Positions 10,679-12,381 of a stretch of 64,000 bases of DNA are shown here, one piece after another (position 1 is the stretch's first letter; each line of letters begins with the position of its first letter). Source of the stretch: Candidatus Latescibacterota bacterium. GTDB taxonomy: Bacteria; JAAXHH01. The stretch is from contig JAJEEG010000006.1 in the NCBI GenBank assembly GCA_022821085.1, positions 2,129,330-2,193,329 on the forward strand, written 5' to 3'. The position numbers were made by a program, and so were the translations under genes. Below the pieces are notes generated by a model. The model made no database searches and was not told the origin of the DNA. It saw nothing but the letters and a program-made list of their open reading frames with translations.

Positions 10679-10728
10679 CATGGCCTGCCAATGGTGGTCA
10701 ATGTTGATCATCGTGACATGATATTCAT

Positions 10729-10779
10729 TGTATACACTGTGTCATGGTGTACATCGGGTAAACGGTGTATACTGTGTTC
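10729..10779. promoter_or_regulatory. Paired operator-like sites upstream of the PC4-like gene
   Basis: TGTATAC followed by a TGTGT word occurs twice, at 10729-10743 and 10766-10779, about 37 bases apart. Each contains the palindromic core GTATAC. The spacing and symmetry look like two binding sites for a dimeric regulator, possibly autoregulatory. No regulator is assigned. Confidence 0.35.
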
Positions 10780-10823
10780 ATCCTGTTACAGCACGCCCAT
10801 CTACCGCCTCGCGAGGTATATAC

Positions 10824-11081
10824 ATGGCCGAGGACAGCCAGGTCGTAGCCAGTTTCCAGAAGAACAGCCAGGAAGAGTTCCGCTTCACCATCACGTCTTT
10901 CCGCGGCAACGAGTACGCCGATATCCGGATCTATTACGAGGCCGACGGCGATTTCCGGCCCAGCAGGAAGGGGATCACCGTCTCTCCGGAGGCGTGGGGA
11001 TCTTTCCGGTCCTGTCTCGATGAGCTGGAGTCGGAACTCAGGGAGCGCAACCTGCTCAAGGACGAAGAAGGAGAAGGCTGA
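10824..11081 (+). CDS. PC4/YdbC-type ssDNA-binding protein
   Basis: An 85-residue protein with the transcriptional coactivator PC4 fold. It has strands FRFTITSFRGNEYADIRIYYE, the conserved RPSRKGITVS turn, and a following helix (EAWGSFRSCLDELESELRER). PC4-type proteins bind single-stranded DNA as dimers; bacterial members are implicated in nucleic-acid transactions and transcription. Start chosen at the ATG after GCGAGG, well inside a longer frame. The C-terminus is acidic (DEEGEG). It is monocistronic, facing the phosphatase/TagI fusion tail-to-tail. Confidence 0.75.
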   Translation: MAEDSQVVASFQKNSQEEFRFTITSFRGNEYADIRIYYEADGDFRPSRKGITVSPEAWGSFRSCLDELESELRERNLLKDEEGEG

Positions 11082-11154: not shown

Positions 11155-12381
11155 CTAGCCCACCCGGTGCCCTTCCCCGGCGAGAAAGCACTCGGGGTCA
11201 TGGTGGATGGGAAGATACCCCGTGCTCATGAGGAACTCGCCGACGATCTCGGGGCCCATGAAGCGGAAGGTCTTCCTGAACACCGCCACCCATTCGTCCA
11301 GCGAAGTGCAGGTCTGGCCGTTCAGCCAGGCCGCGAAGGATCCGTGTTCCGCCCGGATCTCCCGGATGACCCGCGCGTTGTGGATGGCCGCGTCGATCTT
11401 GAGCCGGTTCCGGATGATGCCGGCGTCCCCGAGCAGGCGCGTTCGGTCTTCGTCGCCGTAGGCTGCCACACGGTCCACGTCGAACCCCTCGAAGGCCTCC
11501 CTCAGCGCCTTTCGTTTCTTCAGTACCGTCAGCCAGCTGAGCCCCGCCTGGTTGATCTCCAGTACCAGCCGCTCTAAGAAATCGTCGTCCCGGGTCAGGG
11601 GAAAACCGTACTCGTCGTCGTGGTAGGCGGCCAGTAACGGGTCCTTGAGCGTCCAGGCGCAACGCGGCCGTTCGCCGGCTTCTTCGACGAACTCACCCGT
11701 CCGGACCGGGTGGACGTCTACCCCCGTGATCCATGTCTCGGGCAGGTGGCGCACGCAGTTCATCAGGGCCAGGTGCGTATAGGTGGGCGTGATGATGAAC
11801 CGGGTGACAGAGGTGTTCGCGAACCAGTCGATCCGGTCGTGCCCCATGCCCGGGGTGTCCAGGATCACGCCCACGAGGAACCGCATGAACGCCCCGTGAC
11901 TTACCAGAACGACGCATTCCCCCGTGTGGCCGAACTCGTCTTGGATCCTCCGGGCGACGCGCTCCGCCCGGGCCTGGGCCGCATCGTAGTCCTCCCAGGG
12001 ACGGCACTTCCACCAGCCCTCCTCGTCGAACTCGCCGCCGAGGCGAACGCCCGGGAATCCACGCTCGATTTCCGAGCGCGTCATGCCGGGCCTGCCCTCG
12101 TAGTCCGCGTTGCCCACGCCGGCCTGGACCCCGCCCTGTTCGTGGAGATCGATCCATGCCTCGGCGGACTGTCCTGTCTCGCGGAGGTAGGGGGCGATGG
12201 TTTCCAGGGTGCGGAGGAACGGGCTGACGAAAACGCGGGTGGGGCGAAGGTGGCGGATGCGGTTTACGAGGTATTCGGCCTGCCGGTATCCGAGGGCGGA
12301 CAGGGAGGGATCGTCGGTGCGCTCTTCCTGCGGCCGGGCATTGTTCTCGGATTCCGCGTGGCGGATGATATAAAGTTCCAT
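11155..12381 (-). CDS. Histidine phosphatase fused to DNA-3-methyladenine glycosylase I
   Basis: A 408-residue two-domain protein. Residues 1-220 are a phosphoglycerate-mutase-like histidine phosphatase: RHAES at 7-11 (phospho-accepting His8), LVSHG with second His at about 162. Residues 238-400 are a TagI-type glycosylase that excises 3-methyladenine: zinc-snap residues Cys241 (PRCAW), His254 (AYHDDEYG), His393/His394 and Cys397 (HHDPEC), and the LEINQAGLSW helix carrying the catalytic-pocket Glu (about 275). Both halves look complete, and the frame is continuous. Start chosen at ATG 12381; an AGGAGA lies rather far upstream, and a longer N-terminus is possible. The fusion is unusual. Confidence 0.85.
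   Translation of the reverse strand: MELYIIRHAESENNARPQEERTDDPSLSALGYRQAEYLVNRIRHLRPTRVFVSPFLRTLETIAPYLRETGQSAEAWIDLHEQGGVQAGVGNADYEGRPGMTRSEIERGFPGVRLGGEFDEEGWWKCRPWEDYDAAQARAERVARRIQDEFGHTGECVVLVSHGAFMRFLVGVILDTPGMGHDRIDWFANTSVTRFIITPTYTHLALMNCVRHLPETWITGVDVHPVRTGEFVEEAGERPRCAWTLKDPLLAAYHDDEYGFPLTRDDDFLERLVLEINQAGLSWLTVLKKRKALREAFEGFDVDRVAAYGDEDRTRLLGDAGIIRNRLKIDAAIHNARVIREIRAEHGSFAAWLNGQTCTSLDEWVAVFRKTFRFMGPEIVGEFLMSTGYLPIHHDPECFLAGEGHRVG

Follow-up and report, generated by a model that had tools for sequence, protein, structure and literature searches.

Mycobacterial MutT1 combines a Nudix domain with an RHG histidine phosphatase domain that is not known to be active by itself (PMC11784022), and NCBIfam holds a bifunctional RNase H/acid phosphatase (NF005567). 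In the 3-methyladenine DNA glycosylase I (Tag), the zinc snap is formed by two cysteine and two histidine residues (PMC9266487). Here, we analyzed a gene in a window of Candidatus Latescibacterota DNA (the whole stretch under analysis, 64,000 nucleotides) in which a histidine phosphatase (HP) and a Tag domain are joined, a combination of two known families that is new within the genome collections and literature searched; no paper combining the elements of this fusion was found in the latter. The features of the locus, in window positions, are the following:

11155..12381, minus strand: hp-tag fusion gene, 408 codons, ATG at 12381 and TAG at 11155-11157, kept in 12/12 genomes of the genus
11716..12381, minus strand: histidine phosphatase branch-1 domain, residues 1-222 (PF00300, E 6e-28; R7, H8, R57, E81 and H162; fold matches)
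11668..11715, minus strand: linker, residues 223-238, predicted disordered, spanning what would be the former gene end, the intergenic region and the tag 5' end
11158..11667, minus strand: short-form Tag domain, residues 239-408 (PF03352, E 3e-39; Foldseek 2ofk/2ofi, E ~1e-13; conserved residues)

The single frame claimed in the first-pass annotation was confirmed: the minus strand of 11155-12381 is open from ATG to TAG, and both Pfam domains (His_Phos_1 and Adenine_glyco) were found within the single 408-amino-acid protein that it encodes. The ATG at 12381 is likely to be the true start, because the HP homologues start with the same MELYIIRH; a 442-amino-acid version from a TTG start was rejected as a mechanical extension.

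Each of the 12 genomes of the genus, that of the window among them, was found to carry the frame at exactly 408 amino acids, without stop or indel; the 11 other copies share 86-96% identity with the one in the window and originate from assemblies of different samples. Seven copies also occur as MAG records labelled Latescibacterota or Gemmatimonadetes, several of which are the same contigs as those already counted, so that the genome count stays at 12. These results bear on the possibility, raised in the first-pass annotation, that a sequencing or assembly indel had joined two adjacent frames: split genes do exist in a related genome (G013, see below), but the same intact frame recurs in independent assemblies throughout the genus, leaving such an artefact a negligible chance. 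The histidine phosphatase-glycosylase fusion is real and confirmed at the genus level in Latescibacterota. Among the fused copies, purifying selection acts on both halves (dN/dS of 0.106 for HP and 0.138 for Tag; invariant positions 167/222 and 120/162, respectively) and the linker is looser (dN/dS 0.284). The gene order around the fusion was kept in the copies compared, with a PC4-like gene, an aminotransferase, a PhyH dioxygenase and an ABC transporter ATPase. In the window, the PC4-like gene (10728-11081, plus strand; PF02229, E 7e-16), which encodes a single-strand DNA-binding protein, is convergent to the fusion, and it was retained beside the fusion in the genus copies compared.

The Pfam match of the phosphatase half covers residues 3-209 and reaches 98 bits against a gathering score of 21.7. 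Residues R7, H8, R57, E81 and H162 are invariant in 32/32 HP sequences, comprising the fused genus and standalone relatives. Foldseek matched this half to the tau55 HP domain, phosphoserine phosphatase and PhoE/YhfR (E 1e-9 to 1e-11). For none of the NCBIfam equivalogs (PspA, CobC, GpmB, SixA, MutT1) did the score reach the cut-off (best 39.5 bits versus 350), and therefore no substrate can be assigned. Standalone members of its subfamily (MELYIIRH...HExGG...PGxTRxEI...GWW) were found in Anaerolineae, Spirochaetes, Gemmatimonadota and others. In Paenibacillus thalictri, two histidine phosphatase genes of this subfamily lie in tandem (L095:4001-5252). The closest match by fold, the HP domain of tau55 (transcription factor TFIIIC), and the C-terminal HP domain of MutT1, which supports its partner domain and does not use its RHG histidine to do so (PMC11784022), could both point to an HP half without catalysis or with a scaffolding role, by which the glycosylase would be stabilised or localised. 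However, the invariance of the five HP catalytic residues in both the fused genus and the standalone relatives suggests that activity has been kept, and we regard a purely structural role as improbable.

The glycosylase half matches Adenine_glyco over residues 243-355 (135 bits versus a cut-off of 25). Its zinc ligands C241, H254, H394 and C398, together with E275 and W283, are invariant in 28/28 Tag sequences; we take the ligands to be the equivalents of Cys4, His17, His175 and Cys179 of the E. coli zinc snap, and E275 and W283 are the equivalents of the active-site residues Glu38 and Trp46. Foldseek matched this C-terminal half to E. coli-type Tag both with and without DNA (2ofk, 2ofi). The fusion misses the TIGR00624 cut-off (130 versus 232.5 bits). 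Since the three standalone relatives scanned (L014, L039, L042) likewise fall below it, the shortfall is attributed to membership in a short-form Tag subfamily and not to damage that the joining had caused. This subfamily (L014:968-1471, L039, L041-L054), with the sequence FRFTGGEIVGEFLMSTGYLPGAHxxxC, was found in Billgrantia/Aidingimonas, Rhodospirillales, Balneolaceae and others, and its substrate range may differ from that of E. coli Tag. The fusion contains the sole Tag of the genome; given that an AlkA-like HhH protein (L116) is also encoded, we do not claim it as the genome's only alkyl-adenine glycosylase. Elsewhere, two same-strand tandem Tag homologues, 55% and 42% identical to the query, were observed (G125:C2:557552-558529).

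The first-pass annotation had also reported that catalytic or zinc residues are kept in both domains, and this was borne out for the five HP and the six Tag residues. Because these residues are invariant, both phosphatase and glycosylase are expected to be active, and the fusion protein is probably bifunctional.

AlphaFold2, run with 48 related sequences, predicted two confident domains separated by a stretch of pLDDT <50 (residues 223-236), with a pTM of 0.55; the pTM and the disordered linker fit two domains without fixed relative orientation. Near the junction, Tag has no start of its own, since codons 211-300 of the window copy hold no in-frame ATG, GTG or TTG, and Tag is most likely produced solely within the joined protein. 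Three distant copies, L010, L011 and L013, carry an in-frame GTG at codon 232, from which a short internal Tag product is possible.

A split counterpart was found in sister genus g3 (genome G013, locus L014), in which HP and tag are adjacent but separate genes: the TGA of HP is followed by 17 nt with a Shine-Dalgarno-like GAGGAG and by the ATG of tag in another frame. Aligned to this locus, the fused copies are shorter at the junction by a net 11 nt, in gaps of 7 and 4, whereby the HP stop is gone and the HP and tag frames are joined. Where the former ribosome-binding site would lie, several fused copies have GAAGAG or GAGGAG, read as Glu-Glu, and the start of the separate Tag (Met-Asp-Asn-Arg-Lys-Arg) aligns with Thr-Asp-Asp-Arg-Lys-Arg in L004 and L008. 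In the Tag tree, the G013 sequence and the fused Tags form sister branches (support 0.93) within the short-form clade, and the canonical Latescibacterota Tags L112 and L024 group in another part. On the basis of the split pair, the junction alignment and the tree, adjacency followed by fusion is the simplest history. We infer the direction to be fusion rather than fission, a polarity that rests on one split genome, G013. It is possible that the G013 genes arose by fission of an older fusion, but this is less parsimonious, as standalone phosphatases and Tags occur elsewhere. Two separate genes in a related genome had been proposed as grounds for rejecting the fusion; such a genome exists, but since the fusion is present in every one of the 12 genomes from the genus of the window, it reads as the likely ancestral state and not as a refutation.

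Because the sister genus keeps the two genes as neighbours, the fusion, though real, is recent and local, being limited to a single Latescibacterota genus. Outside the genus, no fusion was found in the contigs examined around the gene loci. Two long frames considered as fusions were rejected: the 387-amino-acid open frame holding the Tag of G014 (L024), in which the additional part lies across a PhyH-like dioxygenase gene that is read in a different frame, and a 413-amino-acid frame (L124:821-2055), in which a short-form Tag directly follows a TenA-like gene in a different frame and no phosphatase is present.

The first-pass annotation had left open whether the fusion ties nucleotide clean-up to alkylation repair or is a fixed read-through of neighbouring genes. 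A functional coupling, with the phosphatase acting in the glycosylase's pathway (e.g. by dephosphorylating a repair intermediate or damaged/alkylated nucleotides) and with selection having favoured the fusion for this link, would agree with the retention of both catalytic centres at low dN/dS and with the adjacency of HP and tag in the unfused sister genus, and has precedents in MutT1 and in the bifunctional RNase H/acid phosphatase. However, no Tag was found in the examined flanks of HP relatives from Anaerolineae, Spirochaetes and others. In sister genus g2 (G012), HP is followed by an unrelated SDR oxidoreductase gene instead of an adjoining Tag, and the single Tag found is canonical and located elsewhere in the genome. 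Neither fusion nor adjacency of HP and Tag occurs among the matches listed for 384 genomes (~255 families). Moreover, mutation of the histidine in the MutT1 RHG domain left pNPP and phospho-NDK hydrolysis unchanged (PMC11784022), and the low pTM gives no hint of a fixed domain interface. A coupling of this kind is accordingly judged unlikely, and it is somewhat more doubtful still that the protein is a bifunctional alkylation-repair enzyme selected as a unit, in which HP would clean alkylated nucleotides or DNA-end phosphates and the tethered Tag would excise 3-methyladenine. The fixed read-through of neighbours, for which the split genes and the net 11-nt loss speak, is the part of the earlier interpretation that is strongly supported.

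Taken together, the observed architecture, conservation, selection and split relative are best explained, with a probability of roughly 0.8, by a fixed fusion of neighbouring genes yielding one tethered 408-amino-acid protein whose two domains are most likely independent. These results suggest a model in which a histidine phosphatase gene and a short-form tag gene would have lain side by side in an ancestor, probably in one transcription unit; deletions of ~11 nt in total at the junction would then have eliminated the stop codon of the phosphatase gene and placed tag in its reading frame, after which the joined gene would have become fixed in the ancestor of the Latescibacterota genus. In the resulting protein, the N-terminal phosphatase would form a phospho-enzyme via His8, with Glu81 as proton donor, and would be tethered by a flexible linker of ~15 residues to the C-terminal 3-methyladenine DNA glycosylase, in which Glu275/Trp283 would recognise the base and Cys241/His254/His394/Cys398 would make up the zinc snap. 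Each domain most likely folds and works on its own, and the fusion would impose 1:1 co-expression and co-localisation, with no catalytic hand-off being needed. A new repair mechanism is not established by this sequence-based analysis. The case does provide a clean example of two adjoining bacterial genes merging into one protein, in which the unfused relative, the junction scar and the fixation are all visible, and it gives a testable hint on an uncharacterised histidine phosphatase subfamily.

Overall, in comparison with known systems, the glycosylase half shares with the Tag family (PF03352, TIGR00624; 2ofk, 2ofi, 4aia) the common fold, 38% identity to 2ofk, the four zinc-snap positions and the Glu38 and Trp46 equivalents. 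The fusion differs from known Tag proteins by its extra N-terminal phosphatase domain and by a shorter Tag part, in which only Pfam profile positions 1-113 of 177 are matched and the stretch ahead of the C-terminal zinc ligands is shortened; relative to E. coli Tag, Tyr13 is replaced by Leu and Trp21 by Tyr. The phosphatase half has the RHG-type motif, second Arg, Glu donor and second His in common with the branch 1 superfamily (PF00300; PhoE/YhfR, PspA-type, tau55 HP domain), and is set apart from its known members by falling in the MELYIIRH-type subfamily described above. As in MutT1 (PMC11784022), a histidine phosphatase domain stands in one chain with a genome-maintenance enzyme, but the partner in MutT1 is a Nudix hydrolase and its HP domain is C-terminal, in contrast to the N-terminal position in the fusion. 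The bifunctional RNase H/acid phosphatase likewise joins an HP domain to a nucleic-acid enzyme, but with another partner and with HP at the C-terminus, and the HP of the fusion scores 22.7 bits in this model against a cut-off of 326.
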